From assembly GCF_900101015.1 (NCBI RefSeq), contig NZ_FNFZ01000019.1, positions 1 to 64,000 of the forward strand: a stretch of 64,000 nt of DNA, in the 5' to 3' direction. Source of the stretch: Sarcina sp. DSM 11001 (GTDB taxonomy: Bacteria; Bacillota; Clostridia; Lachnospirales; Lachnospiraceae). Below are positions 15,619 through 34,847 of this stretch, piece after piece (the first letter of the stretch is position 1; each line of letters starts with the position of its first letter). The notes under the pieces were generated by a model. It was not told where the DNA came from. It saw only the letters and a list, made by a program, of their open reading frames with translations, and ran no database searches. A program made the position numbers and the translations under genes.

Positions 15619-15738
15619 GATAATTTCCTTAATTCCTCTGTTTTTTCAACCTTGATTATTTTTAAACTTACTCCCGGTCCTTACAGACTGTAACTTACAG
15701 GCTGTACTATGTCCATCGGAAGTCAGTTTCAGTTGCCT

Positions 15739-18198
15739 TTAACTGACTTTGACAGCTGTTGTCAGTTTGACAGCTTCCGTGTACTTCTTGAAGAAGAGCA
15801 TGTAGACAATGCCAGCCAGGCAGATGACAGCCGCAATGAGGCCGACCGGGTTGACGTGTCCGGTGGCCAGTCCGCCAAACTGGTTGATCATGAGGGAGAT
15901 CACATAGGCAAATCCGCACTGATAGCCGATGGCGAACCAGGTCCATTTCATGTTGTTCATCTCACGCCTGATCGCGCCGATCGCGGCAAAGCAGGGGGCG
16001 CAGAGCAGGTTGAACACCAGGAAGGAATAGGCGGTAACAGGAGTAAAGGCACCTGCCAGTGTCTGGTAGACTGTCCCTTCTCCGCTCCTGTACAGGACGC
16101 CCATGGTACCTACGATGTTCTCTTTTGCCACGAGACCGGTGATAGAAGCGACGGCCGCCTGCCAGTTTCCCCAGCCCAGGGGGGCAAAGATCCAGGAGAT
16201 GGCGCTGCCGACACCGGCGAGGATCGACATATTCAGCTGATCCTCTTCCAGCATCCCGAAGGCTCCGTCCACAAAACCGAAGTTGCTCAGGAACCATATG
16301 ACAATAGTGGAAAGAAGGATAATAGATCCCGCTTTCTTGATAAAGGACCAGCCGCGCTCCCACATGGAACGGAGCACGTTGACGGGCGTAGGCATATGGT
16401 AAGCCGGGAGCTCCATGACAAAGGGAGCGGGGTCGCCCGCGAACATGGCTGTCTTTTTGAGCATGATACCGGAGATGATGATAGCAGCCATGCCGATGAA
16501 ATAAGCGGAGGTCGCCACCCAGGCGGATCCGTTGAAGATCGCGCCGGCGATCATCGCGATGAAGGGCACCTTGGCGCCGCAGGGGATGAAGGTGGTGGTC
16601 ATGATCGTCATCCGGCGGTCACGCTCGTTTTCAATGGTTCTCGATGCCATGACACCGGGGATACCGCAGCCGGTTCCGACGAGCATGGGAATGAAGGATT
16701 TACCGGAAAGGCCGAATTTCCTGAAAATACGGTCAAGGACGAAGGCGATACGGGCCATATAGCCGCAGGCCTCCAGGAAGGCCAGCATCAGGAACAGGAC
16801 CAGCATCTGGGGCACGAAACCGAGGACAGCGCCGACGCCGGCGACGATACCGTCAAGGATCAGGGATTTCAGGACACCGGCAACACCCAGCTTGTCGAGG
16901 ATTCCTTCGATCACGACAGGAACACCGGGAACCCAGGTGCCATAGGCAGCGGGATCGGGAGCCTCGCCCTCGTACTTCTCATAAACTTCCATGGCACCGC
17001 TCAGTTCCTCTGCCGTGTAGGTCACATCCTCCGTGGCGAGCGTCTCTTCATCTTCAAGAGTGTACTGTGCCTGAGCGCCTGCCGGTACAGCGGCAGCTGC
17101 TGCGCGGACACCGTCCATATCAACGCTGCCGTCTTCATTTGTATAATCTCCGACGCCCACGAAAGCATCCACAACATTAAAGGCGTCTCCGAATTCCTCC
17201 GCGTCTGCCTCGTAGGCCTTCGTTCCGTTTCCAAACAGGTGCCATCCGTCTCCGAAAAGACCATCATTGGCCCAGTCCGTGGCAGAAGCGCCGACACCGA
17301 CCATAGCGATCCAGTAGACAAAGAACATGACTGCCGCAAAGATCGGCAGGCCGAGCCAGCGGTTGGTCACGATCTGGTCGATCTTGTCAGAAGTCGTGAG
17401 CTGACCGACTCTGTTCTTTTTATAGCATCCATTGATCAGTTCCGCAATATAAACGTAGCGCTCATTAGTGATGATACTCTCGGCGTCATCATCCAGTTCT
17501 GTCTCGGCAGCCACGATATCCTGTTCCACATGGGCAAGGGTATCCGCATCGATCTTAAGGTATTCCATGACCTTCTCATCTCTCTCGAAGATCTTGATGG
17601 CATACCAGCGCTGCTGCTCCTCCGGCATATTGTGGACGACCGCTTCCTCAATGTGAGCGATTGCGTGTTCCACAGGTCCGGAAAAAGTATGCTGAGGGAT
17701 AGTTTTATCCTTTTCGGCCGCTTCGATAGCCGCCTCTGCGGCATCCATGACACCGATTCCCTTCAGAGCGGAAATCTCCACGACTCTGCATCCCAGCTCC
17801 CTGGACAACTCCCGGAAATTGATCTCATCCCCGTTTTTCTTTACAAGGTCGCACATATTGACCGCCACGACGACCGGGATTCCGAGTTCCACAAGCTGTG
17901 TCGTCAGATACAGATTTCTCTCCAGGTTCGTTCCGTCAATAATGTTGAGAATGGCATCGGGCCTCTCCTCGATGAGATAGTTTCTGGCAACTACCTCCTC
18001 CAGAGTATAGGGAGACAGAGAATAGATACCCGGAAGATCCGTGACGACCACGCCGTCATGCTTCTTTAATTTACCCTCTTTTTTCTCAACAGTGACGCCT
18101 GGCCAGTTTCCCACAAACTGGTTGGAACCTGTAAGCGCATTGAACAAAGTTGTCTTGCCGCTGTTCGGATTTCCGGCAAGAGCGATTCTCACTCCCAT
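15739..18198 (-). CDS. feoB: Ferrous iron transporter B
   Basis: The 819-aa membrane protein imports Fe(II). The N-terminal G domain has G1 'GNPNSGKTT' (residues 9-17), G3 'DLPG' and G4 'VNMCD', followed by the GDI-like helical domain. The membrane part has two Gate motifs with conserved Cys: 'PMLVGTGCGIPGVMASR' and, later, 'LLCAPCFAAIGAIRREM'. Between the first membrane helices there is a loop of roughly 130 residues ('GDYTNEDGSVDMDGV...'), an insertion commonly seen in Clostridial FeoB. It lies downstream of two feoA genes on the same strand and should be co-regulated by the iron-responsive promoter at 19007-19035. Confidence 0.97.
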   Translation of the reverse strand: MGVRIALAGNPNSGKTTLFNALTGSNQFVGNWPGVTVEKKEGKLKKHDGVVVTDLPGIYSLSPYTLEEVVARNYLIEERPDAILNIIDGTNLERNLYLTTQLVELGIPVVVAVNMCDLVKKNGDEINFRELSRELGCRVVEISALKGIGVMDAAEAAIEAAEKDKTIPQHTFSGPVEHAIAHIEEAVVHNMPEEQQRWYAIKIFERDEKVMEYLKIDADTLAHVEQDIVAAETELDDDAESIITNERYVYIAELINGCYKKNRVGQLTTSDKIDQIVTNRWLGLPIFAAVMFFVYWIAMVGVGASATDWANDGLFGDGWHLFGNGTKAYEADAEEFGDAFNVVDAFVGVGDYTNEDGSVDMDGVRAAAAAVPAGAQAQYTLEDEETLATEDVTYTAEELSGAMEVYEKYEGEAPDPAAYGTWVPGVPVVIEGILDKLGVAGVLKSLILDGIVAGVGAVLGFVPQMLVLFLMLAFLEACGYMARIAFVLDRIFRKFGLSGKSFIPMLVGTGCGIPGVMASRTIENERDRRMTIMTTTFIPCGAKVPFIAMIAGAIFNGSAWVATSAYFIGMAAIIISGIMLKKTAMFAGDPAPFVMELPAYHMPTPVNVLRSMWERGWSFIKKAGSIILLSTIVIWFLSNFGFVDGAFGMLEEDQLNMSILAGVGSAISWIFAPLGWGNWQAAVASITGLVAKENIVGTMGVLYRSGEGTVYQTLAGAFTPVTAYSFLVFNLLCAPCFAAIGAIRREMNNMKWTWFAIGYQCGFAYVISLMINQFGGLATGHVNPVGLIAAVICLAGIVYMLFFKKYTEAVKLTTAVKVS

Positions 18199-27434: not shown

Positions 27435-27503
27435 GAAAAAAAACAACAGACAGCAAAAAAACAGCAGAAAAGAAATGGCAGGAAAAAAAGTATATGAAGG
27501 CGA
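27431..27503 (+). pseudogene. Lipoprotein gene, 5' fragment (split by the IS21 element)
   Basis: This is the front part of the gene whose remainder is at 34227-34847. Starting at ATG 27431 (overlapping the hydrolase stop) or at ATG 27494, the frame leads into MKA and then breaks at the IS. Joining 27503 to 34234, with one copy of the duplicated AAGGCGA removed, restores an uninterrupted frame whose hydrophobic signal peptide ends in LAGC. Either start works; the second gives a standard 20-residue lipoprotein signal peptide. Confidence 0.8.
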
Positions 27504-27844
27504 TGGAAATTCCAGTAAAAGAGGGCAGGAGTTCCGCACCAACGGTGCGCTAAGTCCGGTTTTATCGGTGCGAAGCACCGCCCTCTATCGCTAAATCAAT
27601 GATTGTTTGTCGTCAGGTTTATAAGGCTTGCTTAACGAAGATCATAGAGATACAAAAAGCGCGATCAGGGTGGGGCGCGGGGGTGCGCCTAAGCGCAGGG
27701 CCGCATGTTGATATTTATCAACATAAAACCTTGCAACAGAACAAATGACGCATTATATCTCTTCCAGTGATCTTGATGCTTCTTCCTGATCCACAAAGCT
27801 GTTTCTGCCTTCCACGAACAGTACTGAGCGCTCCCAGTCTGCTG

Positions 27845-28612
27845 CTATTCTGACTCGCGCATACTGATTCCGTTCATCTCCAGACGATAGCTGTTGTGCC
27901 TGTCGGTAATCCTGGAAAGGCAGGCATCAGCATAGGTATGTTCTTTGAAGAGGTCATACCAGGACTTGACCGGAAGCTGGGAAATAATGATCGTGGATTT
28001 TCGGCCATCTCTGCCGTCTACTACTTCAAACAGATCCCGGCACTTGTCCAGATCAAGATCCATGAGGCCAAAATCATCAATGGCCAGAAGGTCAATTTTT
28101 GAGAGCCCGGTCACATACTCGAGGTACTCCGATTTCAGGCGGGCCTGTTCAAGTTCAAGCATCAGGATGCTGGCCCTGATGTAGCGGACAGTTTTCAACT
28201 GCCGGATAGCAGACAGGCACAATGCATTGCTCAGATATGTCTTCCCGCTGCTGGACATGCCGGTGATAAGAAGATTTTTTCCTTCATCGATCCAGTGACA
28301 TGTGGACAATCTTTCGATAGTTGCAGTATCCAGTTTTCTGGCTGGGTCATAAATAGTCTTGTCCAGGTCGGCATCCTGATATCGGAGATTTGCCTCCTTC
28401 AGGAGCTTTGAGAACTTCTTGTTGTAGCGTATTTCCCACTCATGGTTGACAATCTCTGTGAATCGCTCCAAAAATGGCACCAAGTCTGCATTGGGGTCCT
28501 GCATCTGGTCTGCGAATTTCTCCGCCATGCCTGACATCTTAAAGGAACAAAGTCTTTCAAACATGATGGCTTCTTCTGCATTTAGGGAAGGGATCTTTTT
28601 GCATTTGCTCAT
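27845..28612 (-). CDS. istB: IS21 helper ATPase IstB
   Basis: The 255-aa AAA+ (DnaC-like) ATPase assists the IstA transposase in target choice and strand transfer. Walker A is 'GMSSSGKTYL' (about residue 117) and Walker B 'LLAIDDFG'. The N-terminal helical part begins after 'MSKCKKIPSLNAEEA'. Length is typical (about 250 aa). It overlaps the istA stop by 4 bases, the usual istAB coupling. It appears intact, but with istA broken it would only act in trans. Confidence 0.93.
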   Translation of the reverse strand: MSKCKKIPSLNAEEAIMFERLCSFKMSGMAEKFADQMQDPNADLVPFLERFTEIVNHEWEIRYNKKFSKLLKEANLRYQDADLDKTIYDPARKLDTATIERLSTCHWIDEGKNLLITGMSSSGKTYLSNALCLSAIRQLKTVRYIRASILMLELEQARLKSEYLEYVTGLSKIDLLAIDDFGLMDLDLDKCRDLFEVVDGRDGRKSTIIISQLPVKSWYDLFKEHTYADACLSRITDRHNSYRLEMNGISMRESE

Positions 28613-29424
28613 TGATAGCAGTCCCTCCCTCTTATATTTTCGTGTTCAGGCAGTTTCCCAGACGCACCGGATCCTTTCGATCCGTAATTGACCAGCGTGC
28701 TGAGCGCCTTCTTGAAATACGTGTATTTACAGGCGGATGCATTGATGCACGTCTGTGCTGCTTCTGCTGCGATATGGCGCGGTACATCCTGGCATAAATG
28801 CAGGATCCCTTTGCAGCTGTTATAAGCCTGTTCTTCGTGCCTGGCGCTGCGCAGCACCCGGTCAACCAGGGTTACCATCGGCTCTCCGTATACTGAGGCC
28901 CAGCGCCGGTAATACGCACCGTCATGGGCGTTGAGCTCTTTATAGTAACGGTGTTCCGGAGGCATATGCGTATCGTCAGTTATATAGCGTGGAAACGCTT
29001 TGTAGGAACGGGCATGGGTGCAGATAAGCCTGTTGTTTTCGTCACAGATGCGTATCTCTCCCATAGTAGCCTTAAGCATTGCAGGCTTCCCATGGCGCGT
29101 GTACAATACAGAGTAATAGTGGCCATCATACTCAAGGTGATAATTATCCGGTACGCGCAGGAAGAACTTATAGTCACAGACCGTGAACCTGCCCTGTGGA
29201 AGAGGGCTCATCCGCGGTTTATCATAGGTTTCAAAAGCATACGTTCTGGATCTGCGAATGTCTTTCCTGTCCTGGAAATCACGCTGGTTGATGTCTGCTA
29301 TTATTTTTTTCGTCTCCTGATTGATGCTGTCCAGGCTCGTATAAGTTCCCTCTTTCAAGCGCTCGATCAGGTGCGTTTCAAGGTACTTGACGTGGTTTTC
29401 TATCGCTGCTTTTTCCCTGTTATC
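28609..29424 (-). pseudogene. istA: IstA transposase, C-terminal fragment
   Basis: This is the 3' 272 codons of the IS21 transposase gene, in frame with and continuous to the 5' fragment if 29425-33317 is removed. It begins with 'DNREKAAIENHVKYLE', whose Glu fits the third acidic residue of the DDE catalytic triad, followed by the beta-barrel C-terminal domain ('RFTVCDYKFFLRVPDNYHLEYDGHYYSVL' region). The fragment lacks a native start and cannot encode an active transposase alone. Confidence 0.88.
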
Positions 29425-29445
29425 AGAAATTACCGATAACAGAGA

Positions 29446-29476
29446 TTATCGGCGAAAAAGTGTTATCGGCAATCTC
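29446..29476. repeat. RIT inverted repeat, left
   Basis: A 31-bp perfect inverted repeat partner of 33285-33315. It contains two direct TTATCGGC motifs spaced 17 bp apart, a likely recombinase-binding arrangement. Confidence 0.92.
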
Positions 29477-29541
29477 ATCCTGAAGTCTGATATTTACGGC
29501 AGAGTTCAGGATGAGCAGCTATAAAACTTGCCGATAATTCT

Positions 29542-30606
29542 TTACACAAGTCCGCAGAAATGAAGCAGGTAGTCTTCCTTACCTTTCCACTTTTTCTCCG
29601 GGACAGATACAACGTTGCCATCACTGTCTTTTTCAGGAAGCGCTTCCTGATCCACAGAACGGAGCGCTTCTGCCATTGCATCGTTGTCAGCATGTGCGTA
29701 GACAGCAGTCGAATCGATCGATGAATGGCCAAGAAAGTCCTTTATATATGAGATTGGGATCCCTGCTTTATACATTGCCATTCCAATGCTATGACGGAGC
29801 ACATGACAGTGAAGGCTCTTCGGAAATGTCGGGTCCATCTCGTGCATCTGTTTTGCATATGAGGAAAGGAAGGAATTCACAGTTCTTGGTGACATTTTTG
29901 TATGCTTTCTGCCGTGGATCGTATAGAACAAGTAGTCATCATTTTTGCCGTCCGGATGGAACTCGGAAAGGTATGCATCAAGATGCGGTATCACTTCTGT
30001 CGGAAGAGGATTATATCTGGTCTTGTCACCTTTTCCATGAAGCCGGATCTGAACGCTGTTCCCATTGCGGATGATGTCGCCAAGTGTCATGCCGACCAAT
30101 TCCTCGACCCTGCCCCCTGTTTCATAGGCATGGATCATAAAATACTGGTTCCGCCTGCCATTCCTCGTTGTGGTGTCGGGGGCGGCAAAGACAGTTTCAA
30201 GTTGTTCCTGGGTCAGGTATTCCAGCTTCGGATCGGTTTTGCCCTTAAAGCGGCGAATGGATTTCACTTTCAGGTAGATTGCTGACAATGACGCATCCTC
30301 TTCACTGCAATAGCGCAGAAATGACTTGATCGCTGAAAGCCGGAGATTTATTGTGTTGATCGCTTTTGACTGACTGTCCCGCATCCATATGCAGAAATCG
30401 TATACCATTTCCTTGCTGAAGCAGTGGAATCCAACCTTATCAAACGGGATGCCTTTCTGTTCCCGCAGATACTGCCGGTACTGATCCAGGGAATCCGTGT
30501 AGTTTTTTACAGTTGCTTCCGTGAAATTACGTTGGACAACAAGATATTTATGAAGGAAATCCCGGAGCATTTCATAAAAGTAGAGGTCCGACTTCTTAAT
30601 CTTCAT
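29542..30606 (-). CDS. Tyrosine recombinase, third of the trio (RitC position)
   Basis: The 354-aa phage-integrase-family protein has an N-terminal SAM-like core-binding domain and a C-terminal catalytic domain. Catalytic residues visible are Arg in 'ETGGRVEEL', Lys in 'HGKGDKTR', 'HVLRHS' (HxxRH), 'LGHSS' and Tyr in 'STAVYAH'. All catalytic residues are present, so it looks active. The ATG at 30606 has GGAGGTGCC upstream, and the gene overlaps the preceding recombinase by 11 bases, indicating translational coupling. Confidence 0.92.
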   Translation of the reverse strand: MKIKKSDLYFYEMLRDFLHKYLVVQRNFTEATVKNYTDSLDQYRQYLREQKGIPFDKVGFHCFSKEMVYDFCIWMRDSQSKAINTINLRLSAIKSFLRYCSEEDASLSAIYLKVKSIRRFKGKTDPKLEYLTQEQLETVFAAPDTTTRNGRRNQYFMIHAYETGGRVEELVGMTLGDIIRNGNSVQIRLHGKGDKTRYNPLPTEVIPHLDAYLSEFHPDGKNDDYLFYTIHGRKHTKMSPRTVNSFLSSYAKQMHEMDPTFPKSLHCHVLRHSIGMAMYKAGIPISYIKDFLGHSSIDSTAVYAHADNDAMAEALRSVDQEALPEKDSDGNVVSVPEKKWKGKEDYLLHFCGLV

Positions 30607-31570
30607 GCGGCACCTCCGGAAGTATGGAAGTATTTACTATCCGCATGCGGGCTTCGAATTCCGAATAGAACGGCTCCGCCAATGTCAGGTAATAATCCGT
30701 ATCTGCAAAGTTGGAGTGCCCTACGAATTCACTCAGATAAGGATAAAGTGCATTCAAATCCGCATTATCCCTGACCCACTGATTCAGCCTGTACACACAG
30801 TAGGAATGACGAAAGTCATGGACCCTCGGTTTGTTGCCTTTTGTGACGGCTGCTTCCGGAAGCGTGTCCCAGAACTCATGGAACCAGATGTCAAGTGTGG
30901 ATCTACTATAATAATCCCCTTTCTGGTTTGGGAAGAAAACCTTCCTTACAGGAAAGTGCCTCCGAATGATGTAGTCATACCTGCAAAGAAGATCCAGCAT
31001 ATCCGGACTAACATAGATGATGCGTGCTTCCCAACCCTTGGATCCCCTGATAAAGACCTTTCCGCTATCGAGATCCACATCATCTACGTTTAACAGCCTT
31101 GCTTCTGAAGACCTGAGTCCGCATGTGTAAAGCAATCGGAAGATCACCGGAATCACATAACACCGGTATGGTGAAAACGGGGATTTCCTGCATTGATCGA
31201 TAGAGGAAAAGAACGCCTTCAATTCCGCTTCCGTAAAAATGTGCGCATCATAATGTATCTGCTTACGCGGAATTCCTCCGGGAATAATGTATGCGGGTTT
31301 CCCTGTCCCGACAAGATATTTTCCAAACTGCCTGACAGGCGTCACCCTCCTCAACAAGGTGTTCTGGTGCAGTGAAGAACATTCATCGATCCAGGCGTTG
31401 CAGATCTCCCTGGAAAGGACTCCACTATCAGGAAAGGATTTCGAGATCATGGCATCGAGATATCCCAATACTCTGGCGGAAGTATTGTACGGATACCCCG
31501 CGGCCCGTTTCTGGATGATAAAAGCCTCCATATCGGCACGGAACCTGCTGCGGAATACAGGATCAGCCAT
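30596..31570 (-). CDS. Tyrosine recombinase, second of the trio (RitB position)
   Basis: The 324-aa integrase-family protein has Arg in 'TCGLRSSEAR', Lys in 'RGSKGWEARI', 'HDFRHS', 'VGHSN' and Tyr in 'DTDYYLTL'. The C-terminal domain is complete. The start is ATG at 31570 (AAGGTG upstream); a GTG three codons earlier is possible. It overlaps the first recombinase gene by 8 bases and the third by 11. Confidence 0.92.
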   Translation of the reverse strand: MADPVFRSRFRADMEAFIIQKRAAGYPYNTSARVLGYLDAMISKSFPDSGVLSREICNAWIDECSSLHQNTLLRRVTPVRQFGKYLVGTGKPAYIIPGGIPRKQIHYDAHIFTEAELKAFFSSIDQCRKSPFSPYRCYVIPVIFRLLYTCGLRSSEARLLNVDDVDLDSGKVFIRGSKGWEARIIYVSPDMLDLLCRYDYIIRRHFPVRKVFFPNQKGDYYSRSTLDIWFHEFWDTLPEAAVTKGNKPRVHDFRHSYCVYRLNQWVRDNADLNALYPYLSEFVGHSNFADTDYYLTLAEPFYSEFEARMRIVNTSILPEVPHED

Positions 31571-33149
31571 GGCTTTCACCTTCTTCCCAGTATTTCTGTC
31601 CGATCAGAGAAAAGTCGAGCGGGCATTCGCGAAGCATCTGCTCTTCCATAGACAGATACGGCTTATCAGATTCCCTGGATATATGCCCCAGCGTATCTGT
31701 AATGACCTGGTGAGGAACCTTTTTCAACAGGAGTTTGTGCGTAAGCGTATACCTGCAGACATGGACCCCCTGACTGTCGCGGTTTACAGTCTTAATGCCG
31801 GCCTGTGAAAAAAGCCGGGAACAGACCATGTACATCGAGGCAAGCTTTTTGTAAGGAGCCTGTGTCCTCACAAAAACATACGGACAGGCACGTGCAGCCT
31901 CTGGCCGTTCATTCATGATGTAGTCCATGATGCTATTGCCGACATCCTCAAGTAAAGGAAGGCAGAGCATGACCCCGGTCTTTTCCTGCTCCAGGACGAT
32001 CCGATCTTTTTTCCAGTCGATCTGGTTGAACCGCAAGTTGCAGATATCAATGTCTCTCAGTCCAAGGCGGAGCGCCAGCCTCATCATCGCTTTGGTCCGC
32101 ATGGGAGCTTCCTTCATGGCCTTGTAGAGCTTCGCTTCATCTGAAGCAGTGATATAAGGCCTGAGGTGCATCCGTTGATATGCGGGAGTCAGGATCATAC
32201 CTGAAAAATCTGTTGGCATAAACCCTGCATAGAATAAATAAGACAGAATCCTGCGGACGATTGGAAATATTGTTCCCCTGCTGTTCAGGTTAAGTTTTTC
32301 TGACAGGAAGACAAGCATACCCTGGATCTGTGCGGGCTTTAATGTAAGTAGATCATGAACAGTATTAACACCCAGGCCTTCGATCATATTTCGAAAAGCA
32401 TAGTCACAAAGGTCAAGGGTATTATTTTCAAGGTTCTGAGTACGTAAAAACGCTAAATACTGCTGGCGGAGCTGTTCTAGTGTTTCTTCGTGACAGCATA
32501 CTTTTCGTGAACGAAACAGCTTCCACCCAAAACAGCCTGTATCGGCAACTTCAAGTAGTACACAGGTTGCGCGTCGGCGTATCTTCCTCTTCCATTCGTG
32601 CAGGTTTCCATCCTGATGTTTCTTATTCGCATCTTTAATGAAAGACCTGCATCTGTCTCTGGTGAATGCTGTATCGCCGCCGAGATAAAGAGAAATATAC
32701 AGCTCCCGCCACGCCTTCATGTATTGACCGCCGGTTGATGCGGAAAGCTGGAGATACTCCATTTCGTTTTCCGCCCTGCGGATCAGATGACCGATGTCAA
32801 CACTTCCGTCAATGATCGGAAATGCTACAGTCTGGAATGCACTCTCTGCCTCATAGGAAGATGGGATCTCAGGCTCATTATAGAGATTCCCTTCCGGCAT
32901 AAATGCCCTTGTTCCGGCTTCTTTGTCCACAAGACGTACGGTATGGAATAGCTGGAAACGAAGATCAGGCGTATCTGCTCTGGAAACATAGGAATCATAT
33001 AGTTCCTGGCATGGTTTGGTGAATCCTGTTTTTTCTGCGTGATCAGACAACTGTTCCAAGTAACATCTGCGCACATCGTAAGTTGAAGGAGCAAGTAATA
33101 ACTTCTGTTGTTCAAGGACAGCGTTCACAACTTTTTGCAACTCGTTCAT
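31563..33149 (-). CDS. Tyrosine recombinase, first of the trio (RitA position)
   Basis: The 528-aa protein has a large N-terminal region (about 300 residues) with two core-binding-like helical segments and a C-terminal catalytic domain: Arg in 'LGLRDIDI', Lys in 'QEKTGV', 'HVCRYT', 'LGHIS' and Tyr in 'KPYLSM'. It is longer than the usual RitA (about 400 aa), so an added N-terminal domain is possible. The start at 33149 follows AAAGGAG; a longer open frame to 33233 has no ribosome site. It heads the overlapping recombinase operon. Confidence 0.9.
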   Translation of the reverse strand: MNELQKVVNAVLEQQKLLLAPSTYDVRRCYLEQLSDHAEKTGFTKPCQELYDSYVSRADTPDLRFQLFHTVRLVDKEAGTRAFMPEGNLYNEPEIPSSYEAESAFQTVAFPIIDGSVDIGHLIRRAENEMEYLQLSASTGGQYMKAWRELYISLYLGGDTAFTRDRCRSFIKDANKKHQDGNLHEWKRKIRRRATCVLLEVADTGCFGWKLFRSRKVCCHEETLEQLRQQYLAFLRTQNLENNTLDLCDYAFRNMIEGLGVNTVHDLLTLKPAQIQGMLVFLSEKLNLNSRGTIFPIVRRILSYLFYAGFMPTDFSGMILTPAYQRMHLRPYITASDEAKLYKAMKEAPMRTKAMMRLALRLGLRDIDICNLRFNQIDWKKDRIVLEQEKTGVMLCLPLLEDVGNSIMDYIMNERPEAARACPYVFVRTQAPYKKLASMYMVCSRLFSQAGIKTVNRDSQGVHVCRYTLTHKLLLKKVPHQVITDTLGHISRESDKPYLSMEEQMLRECPLDFSLIGQKYWEEGESHG

Positions 33150-33284
33150 TTCAATTCTCCTTTCTGCCGCAAATATCATAGCGGTCAAGAATAGGATATC
33201 AATTGAGTGAACTGAGAAAAATGTTATCAGCAATCAAGATGATACAATCAAAGAATTAACAGCTTGCATTAAGCTTTATATACC

Positions 33285-33315
33285 GAGATTGCCGATAACA
33301 CTTTTTCGCCGATAA
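33285..33315. repeat. RIT inverted repeat, right
   Basis: A 31-bp perfect inverted repeat partner of 29446-29476. It borders the istA 5' fragment directly. Confidence 0.92.
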
Positions 33316-33317
33316 CC

Positions 33318-34076
33318 TTTTGGCTTGCGCGGCGGGGGCGGCAGGACGATCGTTTCGTAGCAGTCTTCCAGATCGGAGAAAACTGCATTGAGCAGCAGAC
33401 CATCTTTCGTATGCCTGGTTACAGCTGCTTTGAGATTGTCAGGGACAAGGTACTTCGGAACTGCGCCATAATACTCCAGGGCATGGACAACACCGGTAAT
33501 AAAACTCGGGAGTTTTTCGTCGGAAAAAATTTCTGCGTAAACCTTACTGCTGAAACCCATGGTTGTTGCAAACACATGGACCTTCCGCAGCTCGCCCGTA
33601 ACAGTGTCCAGCAGGAGCTCAGGCTGGTCGCCTACCCAGTCAATGTACATCCGCTCACCGGGGATCCTTTCAACCGGCATTTTCACCTTTTCCTGCCCGA
33701 AATTCTCCCTGAGGAACCGCCGGTACAGTTCATAAAACTGTGAAAGCTGATATCCATCAGGATTAGATTCCTTATATTCCAGCCAGAGGAATGCGAGATT
33801 CGGATGCTCCATATCAGCCATACGTGCGTGTATCTGATTAAAATCCGGTAAAGGTTTCTGCATATGACGCAGGTTTTCTGGCGGGTAAAAGGCTTCTTCT
33901 ACCGACTTGGGGGACATGGCCTTAAGCTCTTCAAGCGTGAGGCCGAGCTTCGTGAAGCGGTCCATGATAAGGGTAATGGTACTATTGCCTATGCCGTACC
34001 GCTTTTGGGTGGTTCTGTATCCGATGCCACCCTGGCGCAATTCGATCACGCCGATGATTGTTGAGTAACTTTGCAT
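33318..34076 (-). pseudogene. istA: IstA transposase, N-terminal fragment
   Basis: The 253 codons cover the N-terminal HTH region ('MQSYSTIIGVIELRQGGIGYRTTQKRYGIGNST' region) and the first two acidic residues of the DDE domain ('MYIDWVGD' and 'LVPDNLKAAVTRH'). The frame ends in 'PPPPRKPK' and then runs into the recombinase element, giving a short foreign tail. GGAGC precedes the ATG at 34076. The C-terminal part is at 28609-29424. Confidence 0.9.
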
Positions 34077-34098
34077 TTGGTGCTCCTTTCTCAACTAC

Positions 34099-34209
34099 AA
34101 CGATGTACAGTTACATCGTTTAGTATAGAAAAATCGCACCGTTTATATCAGAATAAATGCACCGTTATGCTGGAATCAGAGCACCGCCCATTTCGGAATC
34201 GGCGCACCG
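34099..34209. repeat. IS21 subterminal repeats and palindrome upstream of istA
   Basis: AACGATGTA-CAGT-TACATCGTT (34099-34120) is a 9-bp inverted repeat next to the istA start, possibly an operator. It is followed by four GCACCG motifs at 34136, 34159, 34181 and 34204 (22-23 bp spacing), each linked to a GGAA-type half, the presumed IstA-binding array. Confidence 0.75.
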
Positions 34210-34226
34210 ATTGACCGGAATTTCCA

Positions 34227-34847
34227 AAGGCGATAACAGGAATATTATTGGCAGGCTTTCTTGCCCTTTTCCTTGCAGGATGCGGGAGAGAATCTTCAAA
34301 GCAGTCCTGGACAGAGGATAATTCCACGGACCAATTGTACTCCGAGACTCAGGCAGACACAGAGATTTTTCTCTTCCAGATAAACGGGAGAGTATATACT
34401 GTGGATGGTGTCTATCCTGTTGACCGGTTTATTGACGAAGAGATGGAGGACGGCGGTTTTTACCGGATCACGGCAGATGTCACGATCCTCAATGGAGGGG
34501 TAGCGGGATACTATAATTTCCCGCAGATCGACCAGGTGAAGGAGTGTGTACCTGTCTCCTGGTCTGATCTGAATCTGCCTGCGGTTACAGAAAAGCAATA
34601 TGGCCTTGTTCTGACCGGAGATTATGGGGATGGAGATGTCTTTCTCCGCGAATCCGGGATGAAAGCGGTCTGGAAAGACGGAGACTGGATCTGGCAGTAC
34701 AGCAAAGAAACAGACAGGGATGACGGAACGCGGATCTGTCTGCGGGAAGGAGTGACGGAAGAAACTGCCGAAAAGGGAATTTCTGAAGGTATCCTGTCCT
34801 GTGAAGATTATTTCGTAATACCCTCGCCTGACAAACAGGTAAAATGA
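34227..34847 (+). pseudogene. Lipoprotein gene, 3' fragment (split by the IS21 element)
   Basis: This is the main part of the interrupted lipoprotein (about 205 codons). It opens with the rest of the signal peptide, 'ITGILLAGFLALFLAGC', with lipobox LAGC, then an SKQSWTEDNSTD linker and a compact domain with 'GRVYTVDGVYPVDRFIDEE' and 'YNFPQIDQVKECVPVSWSD'. The family is not recognised. Without its start it may be silent, although a TTG at 34248 leaves a short hydrophobic leader. It converges on yihY with only 3 bases between stops. Confidence 0.8.

Follow-up and report, generated by a model that had tools for sequence, protein, structure and literature searches.

The window, the whole stretch of 64,000 nucleotides that was analysed, carries one complete IS21 copy in which istA is interrupted by a RIT (recombinase-in-trio) element. 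A sequence-only reading of this DNA had described a RIT-type element lying within the transposase gene of an IS21, and the identification was right. The host has istA and istB, TG..CA ends and a short target duplication, and its two istA halves match positions 3–225 and 225–294 of NF033546, a model of IS21 transposases, the score of each half alone being below the whole-protein cut-off. The inserted DNA spans 29414–33315 (3,902 bp) and begins with a foreign hexamer, which is followed by a near-palindromic core of 20 bp, another foreign hexamer and a 3,870-bp ritABC body. The features are as follows:

27497–27503 and 34227–34233: 7-bp target duplication of the host IS21, AAGGCGA
27504–34226, minus strand: host IS21-family element with the insertion inside it, 2,821 bp when this is subtracted; TG..CA ends
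27845–28612, minus strand: istB, open, 255 aa (NF038214, 1.2e-56)
28609–29413, minus strand: istA, C-terminal part
29414–29419, minus strand: hexamer on the core side (t6), foreign and brought along; CAGGGA in istA sense
29420–29439, minus strand: near-palindromic core, 20 bp, TTATCGGTAATTTCTGATAA in istA sense
29440–29445, minus strand: inner hexamer (c6), the core/body spacer; its reverse complement, CAGAGA, is similar to t6
29446–33315, minus strand: element body, 3,870 bp, bounded by 31-bp inverted repeats
29446–29476, plus strand: 31-bp terminal inverted repeat, ritC end; holds TTATCGGC twice, 17 bp apart
29542–30606, minus strand: ritC, tyrosine recombinase of 354 aa (PF00589)
30596–31570, minus strand: ritB, tyrosine recombinase of 324 aa (PF00589)
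31563–33149, minus strand: ritA, tyrosine recombinase of 528 aa (PF00589)
33285–33315, minus strand: 31-bp terminal inverted repeat, ritA end
33316–33321, minus strand: hexamer on the coreless side (s6), part of the resident istA; AAAAGG in istA sense
33322–34076, minus strand: istA, N-terminal part

The only genes between the element ends are three tyrosine-recombinase genes, which had been read as overlapping and catalytically complete; each product has a Pfam PF00589 match, and the R, HxxR, H and Y motif letters are present in all three. The adjacent genes overlap by 8 and 11 bp according to the start codons used (overlaps of four to eight are given in PMC3414803). Their best matches fall in the order A, B, C in complete trios, for example L040–L042 and the plasmid loci L120–L123. 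The length of RitA had been considered unusual, but 528 aa is within the range at comparable loci, where most RitA ORFs are 399 to 672 aa and two are shorter (333 and 354). RitA is described with two core-binding domains and RitC with an additional C-terminal helix in the available part of PMC8138268. A peptide-pattern search of viral contigs found no relatives of RitA or RitC, and no plasmid record was found with a RitA match over 80% of its length. The 31-bp inverted repeats are perfect, as had been noted, and at a separation of 3.8 kb such a match is well above chance expectation. RIT elements have inverted repeats of approximately 28–34 bp with an overlapping palindrome, which correspond here to the 31-bp repeats and the 20-bp core. 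The palindrome on the left had been taken for an oddity; it is this core, located between two 6-bp spacers, and cores of its kind recur at RIT ends.

The sequence-only reading had placed the crossover at 29425–33317. Removal of that interval does preserve the istA frame, but it leaves three extra codons (DNR) that are absent from intact IstA proteins. Removal of 29414–33315 instead leaves the hexamer AAAAGG and the motif RKPKGKAAIEN, which is found in all eight intact IstA relatives spanning the site (five distinct, four of the eight being identical copies from one genome), and this interval was therefore taken as the insert. In the comparison of IstA homologues that had been proposed for this junction, all eight relatives read KGK, in keeping with the hexamer on the coreless side and at odds with that on the core side. 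The assignment of t6 as native istA sequence was overturned by these relatives and by an empty site. A single full-length copy of the element and a single copy of the IS21 stretch are present in the genome of the window, which thus has no empty site. An empty istA at locus L075, with flanks 86% and 88% identical, contains CCGTTT once, whereas L034 reads CCGTTT-element-TAAGGA, which gives the L034 junction to the base. The side of the native hexamer is established for the window and L034 only.

Two further independent copies of the element, with RitA 91% and 73% identical, occupy the same position of unrelated istA genes; the IstA halves of the three IS21 hosts are only 24–29% identical to one another. 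The target stretch lies a few codons ahead of the presumed catalytic glutamate of IstA. The target halves and the element arms, compared by eye, show no resemblance. The element represents a new istA-specific RIT clade. No relatives of the L038 IstA were found in viral contigs by peptide-pattern search. Target specificity, seen in three independent copies at one istA position and an empty site, had not been raised in the sequence-only reading.

These observations are, in our judgement, quite probably explained by tyrosine recombination over a 6-bp overlap, through a circle, into catalytic-motif DNA, by an istA-specific clade that keeps hexamers from earlier hosts. The cycle that we infer, including the circle, the movement itself, the role of each recombinase, the strand order and present activity, would run as follows. 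The substrates of the three recombinases would be arms located at both body ends and within the core, and the element would be excised or copied as a circle with the predicted junction IR-6bp-core-6bp-IR. Because the core is near-palindromic, integration could proceed through either spacer, so that the gene body may point in either direction, while asymmetry of the target would always place the core on the same side. Exchange over the 6-bp overlap would keep the resident hexamer at the coreless side and leave the hexamer of the circle at the core side, and the hexamers beside the core would thus be remnants of earlier hosts.

Over 27 RIT ends, the reverse complement of c6 equals t6 at 114 of 162 bases (shuffled mean 45.9; none of 20,000 shuffles as high), compared with 33 of 162 without reverse complementing. 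The signal is weaker when each class is represented by a single element (n = 7), s6 and t6 then agreeing at 28 of 42 bases (35 of 20,000 shuffles as high). Such likeness could also arise if c6 were no remnant but an inverted copy of t6 made at each insertion, perhaps when repair proceeds via a hairpin or fold-back over the palindromic core. The match is exact in 6 of the 27 ends and covers at least five of six bases in 13, as this explanation would predict; however, the differences are often synonymous, as in L041 (CTTTTA/CTGCTG, both Leu-Leu), L052 (CCCGTC/CCTGTG, both Pro-Val) and L114 (ACGGGC/ACTGGT, both Thr-Gly), which is expected of one codon motif drawn from other genes. In L041, moreover, it is the coreless-side hexamer, not t6, that is identical to the reverse complement of c6. 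Inverted copying is therefore unlikely, and carriage from earlier hosts is preferred. Across RITs with identified targets, the carried hexamers tend to suit the same codons. It speaks against the preferred reading that none of the six carried by the three istA copies is synonymous with the native hexamer; their pattern is P-[KR]-[DE], which is present at 4 of 16 intact istA sites (17 before removal of one spurious line). For the L115 target, comparison with an intact IS66 relative added only a little, and none of the L041 relatives yielded the motif.

The side of the core is set by the target. In L034 the body is reversed relative to the window, and the core is nevertheless on the istA C side. 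In IS3 targets the core is on the C side in all five cases (two at the ritA end, three at the ritC end), and in group II targets it is on the N side in both (one at each end). The palindrome was accordingly rejected as part of the element's own polarity, since its side is constant while the body flips. A constant istA side would also be expected if the core and 6-bp spacers had resided in istA beforehand, with only the body bounded by the 31-bp repeats being mobile. This is very improbable, as the core is absent from the site in the empty istA of L075, the more distant L072 and the eight intact relatives of the window's istA, and cores adjoin RIT bodies in unrelated target genes. Many other RITs, including the C. 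necator pHG1 trio, share the arrangement of core and hexamers. The scan for cored ends covered 50 sequences, many of them without one; L120 and L121 were followed further, and L060 was flagged but dropped because its core is not palindromic. L051 is an exception to the pattern, and no target was found for L051, L102, L117 or one end of L116.

Most identified RIT targets are conserved, often catalytic, motifs in mobile-element genes, and the trees of RitA, of RitB and of RitC all place the IstA, IS3, DDE-E and group II targets in one clade apiece. Near-random insertion, with mobile-element genes hit because they are common and the shared istA position due to coincidence or shared ancestry, agrees with RITs on record in other mobile-element genes (available parts of PMC2864759 and PMC3414803), but is hardly credible given these clades and an identical position in three such dissimilar hosts, unless the three copies represent one insertion, against which the unrelated IS21 hosts argue.

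The RITs of Cupriavidus metallidurans and relatives, as far as described in the parts of PMC2864759 and PMC3414803 available, likewise have three overlapping tyrosine-recombinase genes in A-B-C order and inverted repeats with a palindrome, and they too sit in a transposase gene (IS66 tnpA, Tn6049-like), or in radC. They are approximately 3,500 bp long, compared with 3,896 bp for the element here, and their archetype recombinases are 315–410 aa, compared with 528 aa for RitA; IS21 istA as the target is a further difference. Six-base carry and one-sided placement are known from SE elements (PMC10214605 and PMC9345347, available parts). In SE and Tn554-like elements, the six bases adjoining one end are carried over to the opposite side when the element next inserts, and the resident six stay at the other, as proposed here. 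The gene content differs: SE elements have four conserved genes (intA, tfp, intB and srap), two of them for non-recombinase proteins, and Tn554 combines the recombinases TnpA and TnpB with the non-recombinase TnpC, whereas the third gene here encodes a full tyrosine recombinase. The published SE descriptions examined, as far as available, give no 20-bp core between spacers. The SE circle contains 6 bp of one flank and leaves no empty site, and the present element may behave alike.

RITs as a class may be parasites of mobile elements, each clade homing on DNA for a conserved, usually catalytic, motif and stamped with hexamers of earlier hosts, a view towards which we lean. For IS21, other DDE transposases and IS66 TnpC the motif would be the glutamate; for IS3, the second aspartate; for tyrosine recombinases, Arg-His or Tyr; for group II reverse transcriptase, PQG; for ParA, the P-loop; and for C5 methyltransferases, ENV. 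Thanks to the hexamers, a single sequence would then reveal part of the travel history of a RIT. Three recombinases may be needed, one for the element's own arms and two for the unlike target halves. Inteins and group II introns also favour DNA for invariant catalytic motifs, a site thus present in many hosts, but these are removed by splicing and the host gene is spared, whereas the element here breaks istA. A literature search on istA and nested elements found nothing relevant, and RIT target specificity and movement have the status "not formally tested" in the available part of a 2023 paper (PMC10214605). The target rule and the hexamer memory may be new for RITs. The exact ends and the empty site, together with the predicted circle junction and the target rule, make RIT specificity and movement accessible to experiment in a laboratory strain. 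If the rule is general, RITs would serve in nature to silence transposases, integrases and retroelements, with the hexamers logging the elements that they have met. The 17-bp spacing of the TTATCGGC pair in the ritC-end repeat is also found in L038.

The window element is a real recombinase-in-trio (RIT) insertion, exactly placed in the istA gene of an IS21-family element, and represents a new istA-specific clade. RIT trios, their inverted repeats and the end palindrome are already described in earlier papers (PMC3414803, PMC2864759). The window features are as follows.

27504-34226, host IS21-family element with TG..CA ends and a 7-bp duplication
29420-29439, 20-bp near-palindrome (core), left of the body, with six bases on either side
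29446-29476 and 33285-33315, perfect 31-bp inverted repeats, the body ends
33149-31563, minus strand, ritA, ORF with a phage-integrase family match
31570-30596, minus strand, ritB, ORF with a phage-integrase family match
30606-29542, minus strand, ritC, ORF with a phage-integrase family match

Neighbouring rit genes overlap by 8 and 11 bp, and RitA, RitB and RitC all contain the R, HxxR, H and Y letters of the tyrosine-recombinase motif. The body between the inverted repeats measures 3,870 bp, and each 31-bp repeat carries TTATCGGC twice, 17 bp apart, a spacing shared by a copy in another genus (L038). A lipoprotein-like ORF (34248-34847) directly adjoins the IS21 end at 34226, and the IS21 insertion may have cost it its start. 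Elsewhere in the window, two very long ORFs (786 and 819 aa) overlap on opposite strands at 15709-18198, one probably being the mirror frame of the other.

The istB gene of the host IS21 is open, while its istA is split at the point matching position 225 of the IS21 model (294 positions). Deletion of 29425-33317, as proposed in the sequence-only reading, does restore the istA frame, but RKPK and EKAA are then separated by DNR, residues absent from aligned intact IstA. Among 397 family genomes searched, seven had an istA match, including the window's own; one (G410) holds only a fragment short of the insertion site, and the other five hold eight intact copies (five distinct by motif and identity), with 55-70% identity over the N-terminal part. 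All eight read RKPKGK[AP]T[VI]ENHV. Removal of 29414-33315, keeping the coreless-side hexamer AAAAGG, results in RKPKGKAAIENHV in the window, whereas the core-side hexamer CAGGGA, if kept instead, would yield RKPREK. Since the eight intact genes read RKPKGK, matching AAAAGG, the core-side hexamer is foreign.

Two roe-deer metagenome-assembled genomes (L034, whose contig is also present as genus genome G016, and L035) carry RitA relatives at 91% identity in the same insertion, and the RitA relative of L038 is 73% identical. Copies this close are rare: 2 of the 62 genomes searched in the genus carry one, as do 2 of the 397 in the family, and each figure includes the window's genome. Every copy lies inside istA at the same motif, with halves that match the IS21 model up to 221-225 and from 225. 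The IstA halves of the three hosts are 24-29% identical; the hosts are unrelated IS21 elements, and three independent insertions are therefore counted. An intact istA in a genus genome (L075), with flanks 86% and 88% identical to those of L034, contains the resident hexamer CCGTTT once, compared with CCGTTT-element-TAAGGA in L034. This empty site fixes the L034 junction to the base.

Scanning 50 sequences (the window together with the trio loci retrieved) for an arm-6 bp-core-6 bp layout gave 28 ends, of which one (L060) was excluded for its non-palindromic core, leaving 27. Visual reading added seven ends (two in L053 and one each in L049, L065, L054, L042 and L051), and two identified later belong to Rhodococcus opacus and Cupriavidus necator plasmids. 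A target gene was assigned for 29 of the first 34 ends and then for L125 (a C5 methyltransferase, 1.6e-18), leaving four without a target. Target pieces have HMM support for IS21, IS3, IS66 TnpB and TnpC, ParA, reverse transcriptase, integrase and YhcG-nuclease; the phage lysozyme match falls below the cut-off, and for L055, L057, L116, L042 and one L053 flank the target was identified only by visual inspection.

The cut falls at a conserved motif or within a few codons of one. This is the presumed catalytic E in IS21, other DDE and IS66 proteins, DQG in IS3, PQG in reverse transcriptase, the Arg-His or Tyr motif in tyrosine recombinases, and in ParA the P-loop (L040) or a conserved stretch further along (L052). 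The sites in phage lysozyme (L126) and TnpB (L041, L114) show no nameable catalytic motif. The window's own genome (G000) has three further RIT trios: one in parA (L040, C65), one in IS66 tnpB (L041, C37) and one in the reverse transcriptase gene of a group II element (L042, C56). At L053:740-955, a RIT end apparently lies inside the ritB of another RIT, at an RHTF motif (by eye; no Pfam match).

In the RitA, RitB and RitC trees (24 elements; 23 for RitC), the IS3, IstA, DDE-E and group II target classes each make up a single clade, and IS66 TnpC, ParA and TnpB targets do not. Each tree requires 11 target changes against shuffled means of 16.6-16.9 (0 of 200 shuffles as low), in a test favoured by near relatives. 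Target choice seems to be inherited together with the recombinases, apart from a few switches.

Over the 27 ends, to which three loci contribute two or three each, the reverse complement of the inner hexamer (between core and body) agrees with the outer, core-side hexamer at 114 of 162 bases (shuffled mean 45.9; 0 of 20,000 shuffles as high), and without reverse complementing there are 33 matches. Sixteen elements have two readable ends, just one of which bears a core; in these, the coreless-side hexamer matches the outer hexamer at 68/96 bases (mean 28.7) and the reverse-complemented inner hexamer also at 68/96 (mean 28.8), with 0 of 20,000 shuffles as high in either case. When each class is represented by a single element (n=7), the signal weakens to 28/42 in both comparisons (35 and 8 of 20,000 shuffles as high, respectively). 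Outer and coreless-side hexamers are identical in 5 of 16 elements, and 6 of the remaining 11 pairs are synonymous (1.15 expected, P 1.7e-5). With the reverse-complemented inner hexamer in place of the outer one, the figures are 4 of 16 and 4 of 12 (1.23 expected, P 0.012). Both P values assume uniform hexamers and independent elements, and both treat the coreless-side hexamer as the native one, a point proved in the window and L034 only. The IS21 copies are a poor case, as not one of the six hexamers they carry encodes the same residues as the native hexamer. P-[KR]-[DE] fits all six and is present at 4 of the 16 intact istA sites, as would be expected if the element hopped from one IS21 family to another, dissimilar one. 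L051 is a counterexample to the hexamer rule. Its RIT end (L051:1922-1947) has a perfect 20-bp palindromic core with hexamers mismatched to each other, in a flank that by eye resembles a DNA polymerase A end (no Pfam match).

Published RIT insertions include ones in an IS66 tnpA, a Tn6049-like transposase gene and radC (PMC3414803, PMC2864759), and a 2023 paper marks RIT movement and target specificity as not tested (PMC10214605). Neither the motif rule nor the hexamers turned up in the paper listings and passages searched, and both may be new.

The ritABC body of L034 lies the other way round with respect to istA, and the core nonetheless faces the C-terminal half of the gene. The core is on the C side in IS21 (3/3), IS3 (5/5), DDE (5/5) and IS66 TnpC (2/2) targets and on the N side in group II (2/2), with both body directions seen within each class; the two TnpB cases have different motifs and cores on opposite sides. 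We infer the mode of movement from the junctions and from a likeness to strand-biased circularizing integrative elements, used as an analogy for how the window RIT may move. A palindromic core between two spacers would form a symmetric circle junction at which either spacer could recombine, and use of either would account for the free body orientation and fixed core side. L065 has a second core, perhaps within the same gene. Cores at both ends, each bordering a piece of a different gene copy, occur in L053 (605-4462), L126 (862-4740), L057 and L116, and these bodies may reflect recombination between two RIT insertions.
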